A stretch of DNA of 30,939 bases from a virus, in the IMG/VR virus record IMGVR_UViG_3300013126_000150, positions 1-30,939 of that record. The stretch is one strand, 5' to 3'. Below are positions 19,098 to 30,939 of this stretch, one piece after another. Below the pieces are notes generated by a model. It saw only the letters and a program-made list of their open reading frames with translations, was not told where the DNA came from and ran no database searches. A program made the translations under genes and the position numbers. Each line of letters begins with the position of its first letter. The first letter of the stretch is position 1.

Positions 19098-20126
19098 TTA
19101 AGGTTTCCCATAAGTTTTTGGATTTGCTAATTGTTGCGCTGATTCTGCTGCTGCTCTACCATTTGCAACTGTCGTGATAGCTGTATTTGTCGTTGAAATT
19201 ACATCAGAAACTAAACCTTTAAATTCAGAAACTATTCCCGTATTTGAACCTCCCGATAGAGTAAATGACAATGCTGAAAGTAATGAATTTTGTAATGTGG
19301 CTAAACAATCCTGAAGCATTTTTAGTAAATATGCAGGTAAACTAAGTAGCCATGCGATCATGAGTCTTACTAATGTTATATATTGGGTGATGACTAATAT
19401 TACATCGTTAAAGAAATTCAATATTTTTTGTATTGTCCTGACAAATGCTCTCAGAGATTGAATTACACCTCTTATTTCAGTTGCAATTGTGCTACCTGAA
19501 GTAGAATCTGTGAGGGTTTGAACTGCTCTGATGGCGGCTTGAACAATTGCCAAGTCTTTAAGTGCTTTGATTGCTTCCTGAAACCTAATATTGTTTCTGA
19601 TATCACACACATGCGCACGATTATCATCAGATTTCTGTACACCAGTGCCCTTTTTGGTATAAACAAGCGCAGGTATTGTTGGGCTTCCTGGGCGCATTAC
19701 TTTCTGCGCAGGAGTGTCTGTGTATACAATTGGTGTATCACTTTTTGCGGCAGCCGCTACAGCAGGATCATTGTATCTTTTAGCATATGCAGAAAACGCT
19801 CTTGGTGTTTCATCGACAATATCATCTTGTGGAATTGAGACAAAAACACCTGTAACAACTGGTGCTTGTTTACTTTCTCCATCCAGAAAGAACCCCGTTA
19901 CCCAAGTGCCTTCGATTGGTGCGCTAAAACTTTTTCCAAAATTTGGTGAATATGCTACTGTGGCCCATGGTAAATTTTCTGTTGGCAGTTCATCTAGATT
20001 TGATGTGTGTGAACCGTAAATTCTAACTTTACATCTACCAGCATTTAGTGGATCTTCATGATTTTCTATAACACCAATCCACCAATTTAATCCATCATCA
20101 CCTAATTTATTTTTAAAATAATCCAT
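19098..20126 (-). CDS. 5: Baseplate hub gp5-like OB-fold protein lacking lysozyme, 342 aa
   Basis: Residues ~12-97 (LNWWIGVIENHEDPLNAGRC, KVRIYGSHT, LPWATVAYSPNFG, GTWVTGFFLDGESKQAPVV) form the gp5/VgrG OB-fold that sits on the hub trimer. T4 gp5 continues into a T4-type lysozyme domain and a spike; neither is present. Instead residues ~100-170 form a linker ending in VCDIRNNIRFQEAI, and residues ~180-342 are helical and hydrophobic (IQKILNFFNDVILVITQYIT, LSLPAYLLKMLQDC). The spike is the next gene. The start shares a base with the preceding stop (TAATG) and a GAGGT Shine-Dalgarno lies upstream. Confidence 0.82.
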   Translation of the reverse strand: MDYFKNKLGDDGLNWWIGVIENHEDPLNAGRCKVRIYGSHTSNLDELPTENLPWATVAYSPNFGKSFSAPIEGTWVTGFFLDGESKQAPVVTGVFVSIPQDDIVDETPRAFSAYAKRYNDPAVAAAAKSDTPIVYTDTPAQKVMRPGSPTIPALVYTKKGTGVQKSDDNRAHVCDIRNNIRFQEAIKALKDLAIVQAAIRAVQTLTDSTSGSTIATEIRGVIQSLRAFVRTIQKILNFFNDVILVITQYITLVRLMIAWLLSLPAYLLKMLQDCLATLQNSLLSALSFTLSGGSNTGIVSEFKGLVSDVISTTNTAITTVANGRAAAESAQQLANPKTYGKP

Positions 20127-23901: not shown

Positions 23902-23922
23902 GAGGATAAAATGATAAAATGA
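23902..23922 (+). promoter_or_regulatory. Three-codon leader cistron overlapping the glycosyltransferase start
   Basis: ATAAAATG occurs twice in tandem (23906-23913, 23914-23921), giving two ATGs 8 bases apart. The GAGG site (23902-23905) is well spaced (5 bases) for the first ATG but 13 bases from the second. The first reads Met-Ile-Lys-stop, and its TGA overlaps the second ATG, which starts the long gene. Reinitiation may set the expression level of the enzyme. Confidence 0.4.
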
Positions 23923-25682
23923 TTAGATTACATGTATTAGCAGTTCCACATAGCGTATCAACTAAAGAGTACCTAGTGTGCGCATTTACACAAAAAGTTA
24001 TTAATTTTTGTAAAATGTTTAAAGATGAAGGTATGCACGTAATTCATTATGGGCATGAAAATTCTGATGTTATTTGTGATGAACATGTCACAGTTATGAC
24101 ACAGGATTTACTTGAAAAAGTCTATGGCGTTTATGATTGGAAGAACCGAGGGCTCCGTTACAATCAAAATGATGAAGTATTTAAAACATTCAATGAAAAT
24201 TGTATACGAGAAATAGCAAAACGAAAACAACCACATGATATTATTCTTTGCTTTTTTGGTGTAGCACAGAAACCAGTATGTGATGCTCATTCAGATTTGC
24301 TCTGTGTTGAACCCAGTATTGGTTATCCTTCACATTTTGCTCCATATAAAGTTTACGAATCATATGCGGTGATGCATGGATTACAAGGGCAGGAAAAAAT
24401 CTCCAATGCAGAATATAAGTTCTATGATGCGGTAATACCCTCTGCATTTGATTTTTCCGAATTCGATTTCAAAGATTGGAGTCAAAAAGAAGATTATTTT
24501 TTGATGTGTGGCAGAATTACGTGGTCAAAAGGTGTCTCAATTGCTGCTCAGGTCACAGAAAAGATTGGCGCAAAACTTATTTTAGCAGGGACAACCGATG
24601 GTCCAAGTTATTGTGAATTGGGCAATGAATGGCCAAAACATGTTGAGTATGTTGGTTATGCTGATGTTGAAACAAGAAGGCGTTTAATGTCTGGTGCAAA
24701 AGGGTTATTCTGCCCAACAATTTACAATGAACCTTTTGGTTATGTTGCAATTGAGGCAATGCTTTCAGGTACACCAGTTATCACAGTAGACTGGGGTGCA
24801 TTTACTGAGACTGTTCAGCATGGGGTAACTGGCTATCGATGTAGAACATTTGAACAGTTTGTATGGGCAGCAAAAAATATCAACACAATTTCACCATATG
24901 CTTGCCGACAATGGGCCACCGAAAACTATAACTTCAAAAAAGTCGGCAAAATGTACCGAGAATATTTCGAATCAATTATCAATGTTTCAAAGGGTACAGG
25001 TTGGTACACAGAAAATAATGAAAGAACGGAATTGGAATGGCTTACGAAAACACAACCAAGAGATCCCAAATCGTTCAAAGAAATACTGAATTGGTACAAT
25101 GAAAAGAAGGAAGGAAAATTAAAATTTTTGCAAATAGGTGCAATGGATGGGGTAAGTCATGATGAGCTTCATTCGTATGTAATGTGCTTTGACTGGGAAG
25201 GTGTTTTTGTTGAACCTCTACCTGATATGTTTGATAAGTTGGTGGATAACTATAGTCAGAAATATGGGCTTGAATTTGAATGCGCAGCCGTAACTGAGGC
25301 TGACGGAGAAACTGAAATATATCGGGTGCCACCGGGAACAGAAAATGTAGAAGACTGGATGTATGGTTGTTCCACTCTTGTTCCGGAAAAACATCTTGAA
25401 TATGTACGCCCTCTGATGGTCAAAGAAAATGTTAAGACAATATCTCTTAAAACTTTGGTTGAAAAATATCATTTGCAAGATGTTAATTTTGTTCAAATTG
25501 ATACTGAAGGTTATGATTTCAAAATCTTTATGCAAATGGAGGGCTTGATAAATCCTGATTTACTTAAGATTGAAATTGCACATATTACATATACCGATAC
25601 AGTATACATGAGATATACGCTTGATCAAAAAGGTTACAAGACCTTCATCGATGGTTACGATTTAATAGCTTACCGCTTCTAG
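23919..25682 (+). CDS. Glycosyltransferase (GT4-like) fused to FkbM-type methyltransferase, 587 aa
   Basis: Residues ~1-350 form a GT-B glycosyltransferase: CGRITWSKG (197-205) and YNEPFGYVAIEAMLSGTPVI (269-288) with the EX7E pair Glu271/Glu279, typical of retaining GT4 enzymes using nucleotide sugars. After a linker, residues ~400-587 carry an S-adenosylmethionine-dependent FkbM-like methyltransferase: FLQIGAMDGVSHD (403-415), GVFVEPLPDMFDKL and VQIDTEGYDFKIF (525-537). Together they could add and methylate a sugar on DNA, virion protein or host surface glycan; the target is unknown. It is a metabolic cargo gene between gp4 and tail genes, preceded by a three-codon leader. ATG 23919 is the only start that opens the long frame near the GAGG site. 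Confidence 0.88.
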   Translation: MIRLHVLAVPHSVSTKEYLVCAFTQKVINFCKMFKDEGMHVIHYGHENSDVICDEHVTVMTQDLLEKVYGVYDWKNRGLRYNQNDEVFKTFNENCIREIAKRKQPHDIILCFFGVAQKPVCDAHSDLLCVEPSIGYPSHFAPYKVYESYAVMHGLQGQEKISNAEYKFYDAVIPSAFDFSEFDFKDWSQKEDYFLMCGRITWSKGVSIAAQVTEKIGAKLILAGTTDGPSYCELGNEWPKHVEYVGYADVETRRRLMSGAKGLFCPTIYNEPFGYVAIEAMLSGTPVITVDWGAFTETVQHGVTGYRCRTFEQFVWAAKNINTISPYACRQWATENYNFKKVGKMYREYFESIINVSKGTGWYTENNERTELEWLTKTQPRDPKSFKEILNWYNEKKEGKLKFLQIGAMDGVSHDELHSYVMCFDWEGVFVEPLPDMFDKLVDNYSQKYGLEFECAAVTEADGETEIYRVPPGTENVEDWMYGCSTLVPEKHLEYVRPLMVKENVKTISLKTLVEKYHLQDVNFVQIDTEGYDFKIFMQMEGLINPDLLKIEIAHITYTDTVYMRYTLDQKGYKTFIDGYDLIAYRF

Positions 25683-27001: not shown

Positions 27002-27727
27002 ATGCCATTACCAAAAATTGATAATCCGATTTATGATCTTGTATTACCGTTGTCAAAAAAGAAAATAAAGTTTAGACCTTTTCTGGTCAAAGAGCAAAAG
27101 AATTTATTCATGGCAATGGAATCTGGTGATAGAGAAACGATTGAGCAAAATATAAAACAAGTTTTACACAATTGCACTTTAAATGATGATATTGACATTG
27201 ATAAACTTCCCGTACTTGATATTGAATATTATTTTATTCAATTAAGAGCAAGATCGATTGGTGAAATTGTTGAAAACAAATATCGTTGCGACAATGAAGT
27301 TGAAGAAAAAAAATGTGGAAACATTATGGAAGTTTCCGTCAATCTCCTCGATTTGCAAGTTACAAACTTGGTTGAAAATAAAGATGAGATACAAATAACA
27401 AATGAAATTTTTATAAAACTTAAATATCCAGAATACTCGATTCTTAAGAAAGTTACAGATAAAACTGATGTTACTGATATTGCATTTGAAATGATTGTAG
27501 ATTCCATTGAGCATGTTTATGATGGTGAACAATATTACTATGCTTCCGAAGTACCAAAACAAGAATTGATGGAATTTATTGAATCACTTAATCAGCAACA
27601 GTTTTCAAAAATTGAAGATTTTTTCACGAACTTACCAAAGTTAGAAAAGAAAATACAAATTAAATGTTCTAGATGTGGATTTGACCACTCTCTAGACGTT
27701 GAAGGTTTAGAAAGTTTTTTCGGTTAA
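27002..27727 (+). CDS. 26: Baseplate hub/assembly protein gp26-like, 241 aa
   Basis: LPKIDNPIYDLVLPLSKKKI, then KFRPFLVKEQKNLFMAME and DIEYYFIQLRARSIGE are the gp26 pattern of cyanophage-type T4 relatives (T4 gp26 is 208 aa). T4 gp26 takes part in hub assembly next to gp51. I chose ATG 27002 over GTG 26996 because GGAG (26993-26996) is 5 bases before this ATG. Cys96 and Cys105 plus the CSRC pair Cys222/Cys225 could form a split zinc site. The gene ends in a slippery T TTT TTC sequence one codon before its stop; a -1 shift would join it to the gp51-like frame that follows, giving a 306-aa product. Confidence 0.82.
   Translation: MPLPKIDNPIYDLVLPLSKKKIKFRPFLVKEQKNLFMAMESGDRETIEQNIKQVLHNCTLNDDIDIDKLPVLDIEYYFIQLRARSIGEIVENKYRCDNEVEEKKCGNIMEVSVNLLDLQVTNLVENKDEIQITNEIFIKLKYPEYSILKKVTDKTDVTDIAFEMIVDSIEHVYDGEQYYYASEVPKQELMEFIESLNQQQFSKIEDFFTNLPKLEKKIQIKCSRCGFDHSLDVEGLESFFG
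27715..27721 (+). promoter_or_regulatory. Candidate -1 frameshift heptamer T TTT TTC
   Basis: In the gp26 frame the last codons are AGT TTT TTC GGT TAA. The heptamer fits X XXY YYZ (UUUUUUC), letting both tRNAs re-pair with UUU after a -1 slip. The -1 frame then runs 66 codons without a stop and encodes the gp51-like sequence. Confidence 0.55.
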
Positions 27728-27921
27728 CTTTTTGTCATGACAATCTGAGAAATTATTATAAAACTAATTTCTCTTTGATGCAGCACCACAAATATAGCCT
27801 CACTGAACTTGAAAATATGATACCGTGGGAGCGAGAAATATACATTGCAATGCTTGTACAATATATTGAGGAAGAAACCCTTAAATTAAAACAAAGACAG
27901 AGCGAAAGAAAGAATAGATGA
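27721..27921 (+). CDS. 51: gp51-like extension of gp26, reached by -1 frameshift, 66 codons
   Basis: The frame reads RLTFCHDNLRNYYKTNFSLM, then QHHKYSLTELENMIPWEREI, YIAMLVQYIEEE and a basic tail. The YYKTNFSL...HHKYSLTELE..IPWEREIY pattern resembles, as I recall, gp51-type assembly proteins of T4-like phages. No ATG, GTG or TTG exists before the conserved YYKTNFSL segment except codons inside it; the first ATG (27778) has no Shine-Dalgarno and would drop the first 19 residues. The frame is open back only to 27703, inside gp26. The stop overlaps the next start as ATGA, showing the frame is translated. The product is probably gp26 fused to this domain. A sequencing indel in the six-T run is the alternative. 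Confidence 0.65.
   Translation, partial: RLTFCHDNLRNYYKTNFSLMQHHKYSLTELENMIPWEREIYIAMLVQYIEEETLKLKQRQSERKNR
27732..27773 (+). promoter_or_regulatory. Inverted repeats downstream of the slip site
   Basis: A perfect 12-bp palindrome TTGTCATGACAA (27732-27743) is followed by a perfect 9-bp stem GAGAAATTA / TAATTTCTC (27747-27755, 27765-27773) with a 9-base loop. These could form RNA structure that stimulates slipping, though the larger stem begins 25 bases after the heptamer, farther than usual. It would also hide the region before ATG 27778. Confidence 0.45.
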
Positions 27922-29582
27922 ACTATTACGAAGCAGCAAAAGTAAGAGGAACAAGCTTCGGAGATTTAATGAGACAAAAACTCATTTCTGGTGAAGGAGT
28001 TTTTTCTTCAATTCGTTCATCGTTTTCAGATAGAAAATTAGCTAAAAAGATAGGTAAAAAAGAAAAGTTTGACATTTTAAATATCGCAAAATTTTTAACC
28101 GGAGGTAGTACGTTAGCGCCTGTATTGGTGGGAAAATTATTGGGGCGATCAAAAGAAGATATTGAATACTTTAGTGGTATAAAAAAGAGAAAAACATATA
28201 CAAGACAATCATCATCGATGATTGAAAGAGTTTTGAGTAATAAAAATATGTCATCGGATAGTGAAGCAGTGCCAGTTCTAGAAGAAATATTCACTGTACT
28301 CAAACAAACTGAAGAAGAACGTGACCTAGAATTTGAAACATTAAAAGCTTTTGAAAAGGTACAAGCTAATCTAGAAAAGGATCGTCATCAAGAAGTAATG
28401 AATGTCTTTATTCGCGCTATTCGTAAAAAGAGGCGCGATTATATGAAATCTGGAAAGATTCAAATTGCACCCAAAAAGATGGGCTTAGATAAATTTTTAA
28501 CTGGTGGTTTGTTTGCGCTTGCTGGTGGTGCAGCATTTGCATCAATAAAACCACCTAAAGATGAAAAGCCTGAAATGATGCCTCCTTCTCCTCCAACACC
28601 TGATATAACACCCGAAAAACCATCAGATGATTTTGCTCGCCCGGTGGGTGTACGCCCCTCAACACCATTGAATCCGCCGGCCGTTTCAGAACGAGATATT
28701 CAAACCGGCGCTAGTACCTATACACGATTTGGGGAACCTGTTCGTCGCCCAACAGTCACACCTGTAGACTTGACTCCGCAACAAACTGCAACAAATATGA
28801 ATTTTGCAGAAAGAGTTGCACAAATATCAATCTTTGGAGAAACTGGTGTTAGAGGCAGAACACAAGCAGAAAAGAAAGTTGGGCAAGTAGTAGAAAATGA
28901 TCCATCACCTGGGGTATTTTCTTATGGTATTTTTGGTATGAACAGCGGATCTGGTTCTATTCAACGTTTTGTTGCAGGTAATCCTCAATTTGGATTTACT
29001 GCAAAACCAGGAACACGAGAATTTAATGAAGAATGGAAAAGAATTTCCGAAAGTAGAAGTAAGGAAATGTATGAAGCGCAATTACTTTGGTATCAAGGTG
29101 CAATATTAGATCCACTTAAAAAACAATTGGCAAATATATTACCTGACAATCTTGCAAAAGATGCGCGAGTCATTGCATACTTTGCTGATCGTCGCATTCA
29201 GTATGGAAATGTAATGGAAAAAAGCGCAATAACTTATTCACTTTCAGCTAAAACGCCAGAAGAATTTTTGCAAAGATTGACTGACTTTGATTTACAGAAT
29301 ATAGGCAAAGCATTCACGACATATCTCAGGAACAATCCACAAAATATAAGGGGGCTTAAGTCTAGAATACAAAATAGATTAAGTTCTGCTATGCAATTCG
29401 GTAGTGGTGATATGTTAGCTGATCGCTCTGTTGAAGAAGAAAATTTAAGAACAAGCTTAAGCGCATCATCTAGTGGACCTATAATTATTAATAGAACACA
29501 AATGGTTTCCGATGAAACATTAAATATGCCACCTCCCCCAACTAAACCTGATACAAATCCTGTACTGGAACGAAGAGGTTAA
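27918..29582 (+). CDS. Tail hub/tape-measure-like protein with lysozyme-like domain, 554 aa
   Basis: Residues 1-95 (AAKVRGTSFGDLMRQKLISG ... ILNIAKFLTGGSTLAP ... LLGRSKEDIEYFSG) are homologous to the start of the next gene. A helical region (115-175) and a short hydrophobic stretch (193-210) follow, then a Pro-rich linker (212-292). Residues ~296-490 resemble the chitosanase/lysozyme-like domain often found in phage tail proteins: ISIFGETG with Glu308 as candidate catalytic acid, PGVFSYGIFGMNSGSGSIQR (331-350), FNEEWKRI, YEAQLLWYQG and ADRRIQYGN. I infer a virion-borne peptidoglycan hydrolase for cell entry, notable because gp5 lacks lysozyme here. The start overlaps the gp51-like stop (ATGA). 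Confidence 0.75.
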   Translation: MNYYEAAKVRGTSFGDLMRQKLISGEGVFSSIRSSFSDRKLAKKIGKKEKFDILNIAKFLTGGSTLAPVLVGKLLGRSKEDIEYFSGIKKRKTYTRQSSSMIERVLSNKNMSSDSEAVPVLEEIFTVLKQTEEERDLEFETLKAFEKVQANLEKDRHQEVMNVFIRAIRKKRRDYMKSGKIQIAPKKMGLDKFLTGGLFALAGGAAFASIKPPKDEKPEMMPPSPPTPDITPEKPSDDFARPVGVRPSTPLNPPAVSERDIQTGASTYTRFGEPVRRPTVTPVDLTPQQTATNMNFAERVAQISIFGETGVRGRTQAEKKVGQVVENDPSPGVFSYGIFGMNSGSGSIQRFVAGNPQFGFTAKPGTREFNEEWKRISESRSKEMYEAQLLWYQGAILDPLKKQLANILPDNLAKDARVIAYFADRRIQYGNVMEKSAITYSLSAKTPEEFLQRLTDFDLQNIGKAFTTYLRNNPQNIRGLKSRIQNRLSSAMQFGSGDMLADRSVEEENLRTSLSASSSGPIIINRTQMVSDETLNMPPPPTKPDTNPVLERRG

Positions 29583-29585
29583 AAA

Positions 29586-30939
29586 ATGGATTATCAAGTA
29601 GCAAAAAATTTAAGAGGTCGCTCTTTTTCCTCTCTGGTAAGAGAAAAAATATATGCTGGTTCAGGTGTAAGTTCTGCGGTGGGGCGAGCAATTACAGCAA
29701 AACTAAAGGCCGCCGGGACAGGTATTTTGGAGAAAATTGATCCATTGAATGTGGCAAAGTTTGTAACTGGCGGAAGTAAATTAGCCCCTGCTATTTTAGG
29801 TAGATTGACTGGTAGATCGACACGAGATATAAGATACTTTGCTGGAGACAATCAAACAAGAAGGAGATATACACCTTTAGGTAGTAATACTGTAGGTGAT
29901 ACAGGGTTGGGAAATTCTTCAATTGATGTTTTAAATGAAATCCTTTCCTTTTTAAGAAAAAGTTACGAAAAGGAAAACGAAAGAAGAGAATTAGATAAAG
30001 CTTTTCGAGAAGAGAAACAATATGAAAGTGATAGAAGGCATAAAGAATTTATTGAAATATTAAAAACTTATACCACACTGCCCACTGCTCAAGTCGTTTC
30101 TGGCCCAGGAGAAACACCTGATAAAACTAGTGGCATTTTAGACACTATGAAAAAAATGATAGCGGCTGCTGTGGAAGGATTAAAAAAACTAATGGCAGGT
30201 ATGACTGCGGCGATCATGGCTGGTGTTTCTGCTCTGATTAAAAATGCATTAAAAGCATTTGAATGGATAAAAGATTTAAAATGGTTGAAAAATTTAAAAT
30301 GGTTGAAAGATATTACTAGCATTGGTTCCTTCATCACCTTACTCGGTAGATTTTTACCAATACTGAAATTTTTAGGGAGATTTGCTGGTGCTGCCGGGCT
30401 ATTGACATTTTTATATAGTGCATTAAAATACACTGCCAAAAATATACCTAATGCTTCTTCATTGTCACCTCAAGAGGCGTTAAATGTTTTGCAATCAAGA
30501 AATATTGAATTCATAAAAAAGGAAGGAAAGAGTGACGACCTTAAAACTGCTTATGATAATTTAAGTGATATGGTTTTATTAAGAAAATATATAGCAAAAC
30601 ATTTATTAACAAAGTTTGATGAAAACCCTGAAGATGAGGAGACACGAAAAAATATACTTGACATGGGAGGATTAGCTAAGGTTAAAGAAATTTCTGAATC
30701 ACCAAACATACATCCCAATGAAATACCATTAATAAGTGACATTTTACAATCGAATTATAGTAATATACCTCAGCCGTTAAGAAGTAGAAAACTTAGTTCT
30801 GAACAAGCTTGGATGAGAAATTTTGGTGATATATTTGATCCAGGTACATCAGAAAGATTAGGCTTTCAAGGTGAAGCATATCAAGTGCCAAGAAGATCAT
30901 ATTCACCTGCTCCACCTCCCATTTCCCCATATGAAACTG
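29586..30939 (+). CDS. Tape-measure candidate, paralogue of the preceding gene, C-terminus cut
   Basis: The frame from ATG 29586 stays open for 451 codons to the window edge. Residues 1-95 (AKNLRGRSFSSLVREKIYAG ... LNVAKFVTGGSKLAPAIL ... LTGRSTRDIRYFAG) match the start of the 554-aa protein closely. Residues ~118-165 are a charged helix; ~175-280 contain hydrophobic helices (AGMTAAIMAGVSALIKNALK, IGSFITLLGRFLPILKFLGR, AGLLTFLYSALKY), as in tape-measure proteins that pass into the host membrane. A tandem 6-residue repeat (DLKWLK NLKWLK) lies between them. A Pro-rich stretch begins near the edge. T4 gp29 is the likely functional counterpart, from position and character rather than detected homology. 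Confidence 0.7.
   Translation, partial: MDYQVAKNLRGRSFSSLVREKIYAGSGVSSAVGRAITAKLKAAGTGILEKIDPLNVAKFVTGGSKLAPAILGRLTGRSTRDIRYFAGDNQTRRRYTPLGSNTVGDTGLGNSSIDVLNEILSFLRKSYEKENERRELDKAFREEKQYESDRRHKEFIEILKTYTTLPTAQVVSGPGETPDKTSGILDTMKKMIAAAVEGLKKLMAGMTAAIMAGVSALIKNALKAFEWIKDLKWLKNLKWLKDITSIGSFITLLGRFLPILKFLGRFAGAAGLLTFLYSALKYTAKNIPNASSLSPQEALNVLQSRNIEFIKKEGKSDDLKTAYDNLSDMVLLRKYIAKHLLTKFDENPEDEETRKNILDMGGLAKVKEISESPNIHPNEIPLISDILQSNYSNIPQPLRSRKLSSEQAWMRNFGDIFDPGTSERLGFQGEAYQVPRRSYSPAPPPISPYET
30273..30308 (+). repeat. Tandem 18-bp coding repeat
   Basis: Two adjacent 18-bp units (30273-30290, 30291-30308) differ at one base and encode DLKWLK then NLKWLK, an amphipathic segment before the hydrophobic helices of the tape-measure candidate. 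Confidence 0.85.

Follow-up and report, generated by a model that had tools for sequence, protein, structure and literature searches.

The gp26 gene of an uncultured T4-like myophage very probably encodes short and long tail assembly chaperone forms through a -1 programmed frameshift

Does the gp26 gene of this phage simply end at its stop codon, or do some ribosomes change frame just before it and continue into the gp51-like sequence that lies open in the -1 frame? The locus lies in the 30,939-base IMG/VR virus record IMGVR_UViG_3300013126_000150, all of which is called the window here. A tail tube gene lies upstream. The last codons of gp26 are GAA AGT TTT TTC GGT TAA, and the two phenylalanine codons (TTT 27716-27718 and TTC 27719-27721), together with the T that precedes them, form a heptamer in the X XXY YYZ register (Table 1). 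The original prediction had read this ending as a UUUUUUC slip site that carries gp26 into a gp51-like domain, analogous to G/GT, and the comparative data presented below strongly support that reading. We consider it very likely that gp26 serves an uncultured T4-like myophage (Kyanoviridae-type) as its tail assembly chaperone (TAC) gene, and that the short and long forms arise via -1 programmed frameshifting. That ribosomes slip here, how efficiently they do so and a chaperone role of the products are inferred from sequence.

Searches with the two reading frames placed the locus in the T4-like gp26/gp51 family. gp26 matched phrog_150 (E=2e-63) and Pfam PF12322, T4_baseplate (E=4.4e-59), and the -1 frame matched the C-terminal half of phrog_634, the gp51 family (E=1.5e-28). 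The -1 frame matched phrog_150 as well, at positions 231-276, an indication that fused gp26-51 proteins are among the database members of that family. The -1 sequence begins FFRLTFCHDNLRNYYKTNFSLMQHHKYSL, its first complete codon after the slip is CGG (27721-27723), and the predicted fusion would comprise 240 + 66 = 306 aa. In this frame, pN/pS was 0.38 over residues 4-14, 0.09 over the next 16 codons and 0.19 over the next 20; in the other frames, it was about 0.8 or more. By this measure, purifying selection acts on the -1 frame, beginning shortly past the slip site. We found no ATG, GTG or TTG before the conserved NYYKTNFS motif in the -1 frame of the window, where the earliest starts, TTG 27775 and then ATG 27778, both lie 3' of the motif. 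The -1 frame thus combines coding selection with, in the window, the absence of a start of its own. Its stop and the start of the following gene, ATG 27918, overlap as ATGA. On all these points, namely the heptamer at the end of gp26, the 66 family-like codons, the missing start ahead of the first conserved residues and the coupled stop, the original prediction was borne out.

Table 1 Features of the gp26/gp51-type locus in the window
Feature	Position	Strand	Basis or remark
gp26, predicted short tail assembly chaperone form (TAC-N), 241 aa, zero frame; start ATG 27002, stop TAA 27725-27727	27002..27727	+	phrog_150, PF12322, fold
AAGG, weak Shine-Dalgarno-like element, in Glu-Gly codons	27702..27705	+	ends 9 nt 5' of heptamer
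Slippery heptamer T TTT TTC, putative -1 shift site	27715..27721	+	in register in 223/223 homologues; internal control 12/124
-1 extension, 66 codons + stop TGA 27919-27921; predicted gp51-type C-terminal domain (TAC-C)	27722..27921	+	phrog_634, phrog_150, pN/pS
Zero-frame stop TAA, 3 nt past heptamer	27725..27727	+	equal spacing in 210/223 homologues
AT-rich hairpin, 3' of slip site	27747..27773	+	not conserved; probably not a stimulator
Next gene, candidate tape-measure or lysozyme ORF	27918..29582	+	T6SS_VgrG3-like_C domain, residues 329-486

Related loci were drawn from IMG/VR and annotated phages, and the conservation count took in the gp26 homologues whose gp26 stop lies on the contig (n=223). 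The T-rich heptamer and the frame relation, which the original prediction had proposed to look for in such an alignment, were present throughout: every homologue carries a T6 heptamer in register (200 TTTTTTC, 22 TTTTTTT and 1 TTTTTTA), and each has an open extension, truncated solely where a contig ends. Cultured phages with the heptamer include P-SSM2, KVP40, Mosig, Melnitz-1, ORM_20, OLIVR6, Milchi and phiN3. As some of the 223 loci are near-duplicates, the controls were restricted to 106 lineages with <80% nucleotide identity. In these lineages, the terminal Phe-Phe was slip-competent in 105/105 cases, and Phe-Phe pairs in the interior of these genes in 12/124. The low internal frequency, set against the presence of the heptamer in all homologues, excludes a chance origin. 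T4-type gp26 keeps the terminal Phe-Phe, mostly as GAG TTC TTT and otherwise as GAG TTT TTT, with the preceding T absent; the heptamer was never present in T4-type gp26. A second in-frame T TTT TTC is located inside the gp26 gene of the window (27619-27625, + strand), where a -1 shift would reach a dead end after 14 codons.

These counts bear on the alternative explanations of the locus. If an indel from sequencing or assembly lay in the T run, one fused gp26-51 ORF would merely appear split, and it is true that homopolymers are error-prone and that T4-type gp51 is one continuous fused ORF. However, the 223 homologues, which stem from many different assemblies, share this frame relation, as do genomes of cultured phages. 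Consequently, the T6 run is not an assembly indel, a doubt that the original prediction had itself raised, and we assign this explanation, refuted by the comparative data, a negligible probability. Hardly any probability remains either for the heptamer as a by-product of the conserved Phe-Phe in an AT-rich genome, with the -1 ORF as a decayed remnant. The conserved Phe-Phe of T4-type gp26 and the status of TTT as the commoner Phe codon would fit such an origin, but it is refuted by the internal Phe-Phe control together with a -1 ORF that is under purifying selection and never interrupted.

Termination-reinitiation, in which ribosomes restarting past the gp26 stop would produce a separate small gp51, fares slightly better but is still very improbable. 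It could account for the separate short gp51 ORFs annotated in database records (P-SSM2, KVP40 and others), and an ATG precedes the motif in the -1 frame of 95/195 unique loci, usually as codon 5. Yet 51 of these 195 loci, the window included, have zero ATG, GTG or TTG ahead of the conserved motif, and a Shine-Dalgarno (SD)-like 4-mer was found at none of the 27 -1-frame ATGs before the motif in representative loci; on these grounds, we rejected reinitiation as a general mechanism. Moreover, the third residue of the extension is conserved (R in 97%) though it is encoded 5' of the common codon-5 ATG, and reinitiation leaves unexplained both the invariant in-register heptamer and its absence in T4-type gp26. 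Homologues with a separate, well-initiated gp51 over this segment were of the T4 type only, and their gp51 corresponds to the full-length fusion.

How, then, does the frameshift fusion relate to the T4 proteins? Profile comparison was needed here because single-sequence BLASTP of gp26 against T4-type gp51 was only marginal (E=0.022, 23% over 69 aa). The fusion profile aligned with T4-type gp51 end to end (hhalign probability 99.7, E=3.5e-26, columns 1-297), gp26 alone aligned with the N-terminal part of gp51 (profile probability 99.0), and the gp26 profile also aligned with T4-type gp26. In T4 and its relatives, 26 and 51 are separate, divergent genes. Given these alignments and this arrangement, T4 gp26 is the counterpart of the short form and T4 gp51 that of the long form. 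T4-type phages thus have the two forms as separate genes and lack the heptamer, whereas the window would use a frameshift.

The fold predicted for gp26 was compared with solved structures. With the AlphaFold2 model (mean pLDDT 85.3), the best four matches, over gp26 residues 1-95, were 3klu, 3fgx, 2ob9 and 5ir0 (Z 7.4, 7.4, 6.8 and 5.2, respectively), followed after a gap by a match with Z 3.8. Among these, 2ob9 is the HK97 TAC, and 3klu, 3fgx and 2ob9 are classed as tail-assembly-chaperone structures (PMC9603447). A Foldseek search of the PDB with the gp26 model gave no significant match. As the Z scores are under 8 and Foldseek alone was not significant, the model provides moderate evidence that the gp26 N-terminal domain has a TAC-like fold. 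This fold, and the correspondence of the fusion to full-length T4-type gp51, point to gp26 and gp26-51 as the short and long members of a TAC pair.

On this reading, most ribosomes would end at the TAA (27725) and release gp26 as the short form of 241 aa (TAC-N). The remaining minority would slip one base back on U UUU UUC, pass the stop and read 66 further codons, giving a 306-aa long form (TAC-NC) with the gp51-type C-terminal domain. We hypothesize that the short and long forms would jointly chaperone the tape-measure protein in tail assembly, like lambda G and GT. In lambda, these two proteins have a common start, and the long form gains its extra C-terminal domain when ribosomes slip by -1 shortly before the short gene ends; Xu, Hendrix and Duda reportedly described in 2004 that this tail-assembly frameshift is conserved. 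The window would likewise have short and long forms, but its heptamer is T6C, the stop lies 3 nt on, and the family is gp26/gp51.

We also analyzed possible stimulators of slippage. In E. coli dnaX, an SD-like element is located upstream of the slip site and a hairpin downstream. Across the T4-like lineages, GGAG, GAGG or AGGA occurred at -20 to -8 of the slip site in 75/106, against 4.7% of control windows. At the conserved Glu-Gly, the Glu codon was GAG in 47/87 cases, and at internal Glu-Gly in 14/85 (Fisher p=2.4e-7, an indicative value, the lineages being related). Since this SD-like element lies ~25 nt from the common codon-5 ATG and is found also in loci without any start, it does not act as an ordinary initiation signal. 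That about 70% of lineages have an internal SD-like element 10-15 nt 5' of the slip site is possibly a new observation. In the window, only AAGG is left of the element, and the duplex predicted for it with the anti-SD reaches only -3.3 kcal/mol.

The two inverted repeats that the original prediction had noted 3' of the slip site do exist, the first as a 4-bp TTGT/ACAA and the second as GAGAAATT (27747-27754) pairing with AATTTCTC (27766-27773), 25 nt 3' of the heptamer; the usual spacer between heptamer and structure is 5-9 nt. As conserved stimulators they were rejected, the longer stem being fully kept (8/8 pairs) in 16/190 loci only. For 60-nt windows whose first base lay 0-12 nt from the start of the heptamer, mean folding z-scores were about -1.5 to -1.7. 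In some clades, a strong hairpin follows the slip site at a spacing of 5-6 nt. The P-SSM2 clade has a strong one 5 nt 3' of the slip; in more distant loci, its pairs mostly break instead of covarying. The window's clade has the distal AT-rich stem only and lacks a conserved hairpin at the spacing that is usual. The T4-like family resembles dnaX in its SD-like element ~10-15 nt upstream and, in some clades, its hairpin 5-6 nt downstream, whereas the gene and the slip sequence differ and both elements are weak in the window. We see an even chance that the T4-like TAC frameshift is dnaX-like, with the Glu-Gly SD-like element stimulating U6 slippage in most lineages and hairpins contributing in some clades, and with the window's clade depending on the heptamer and the adjacent stop, its stimulators being weak.

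Vladimirov, Gautam and Davidson (Virology 2022, 566:9-15) are said to have identified the TACs of T4-like phages, and their abstract reportedly describes frameshifting as conserved across many T4-like phages, with two genes in the T4 group instead. The original prediction had known of no established frameshift linking T4 26 and 51; on this point it was mistaken, as the link appears in later accounts of Vladimirov et al. 2022. One of these mentions poly-T -1 slippery sequences in the TAC-N genes of T4-like phages (PMC12846349, citing Vladimirov, Gautam and Davidson 2022), and another a short gene and a long fusion gene in place of the frameshift in some T4-like phages (PMC10885494, citing the same work). 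As far as these citing passages describe it, the gene kind and the arrangement are the same as in the window, which represents an uncultured relative. Because the cited work covers T4-like TAC genes, the window's predicted frameshift is a well-supported new instance of an already described system.

Our loci constitute a large independent set in which environmental T4-like phages would frameshift for their TACs and T4-type phages use two genes. The database entries named 'gp51, baseplate hub assembly catalyst' in frameshifting phages are probably mis-annotated C-terminal fragments of the fusion, and such an entry is sometimes absent altogether for want of a start codon. The records of S-WAM1 (KU686210.1) and ACG-2014h (NC_023587.1) carry no annotation for the gp51 extension; other phage records annotate the gp51 fragment only, from an internal start codon.

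It is plausible that the TAC gene lies directly before tape-measure candidates. The ORFs at 27918-29582 and 29586-30938 (both +) have N-terminal domains that are paralogous to each other (35% over 165 aa); neither ORF gave a PHROG match or resembled T4 gp29. The gp5-like hub gene (19098-20126, - strand) matches hub/lysozyme profiles over their first ~140 positions only, and the ORF after the TAC gene has the T6SS VgrG3-like C-terminal domain, a possible sign that the tail lysozyme was relocated to another gene. Elsewhere in the window, a 587-aa ORF (23919-25682, + strand), flanked by the head closure gene and a gp2-like DNA end protector, combines a glycosyltransferase (residues 2-366) with a methyltransferase-like part (392-575).
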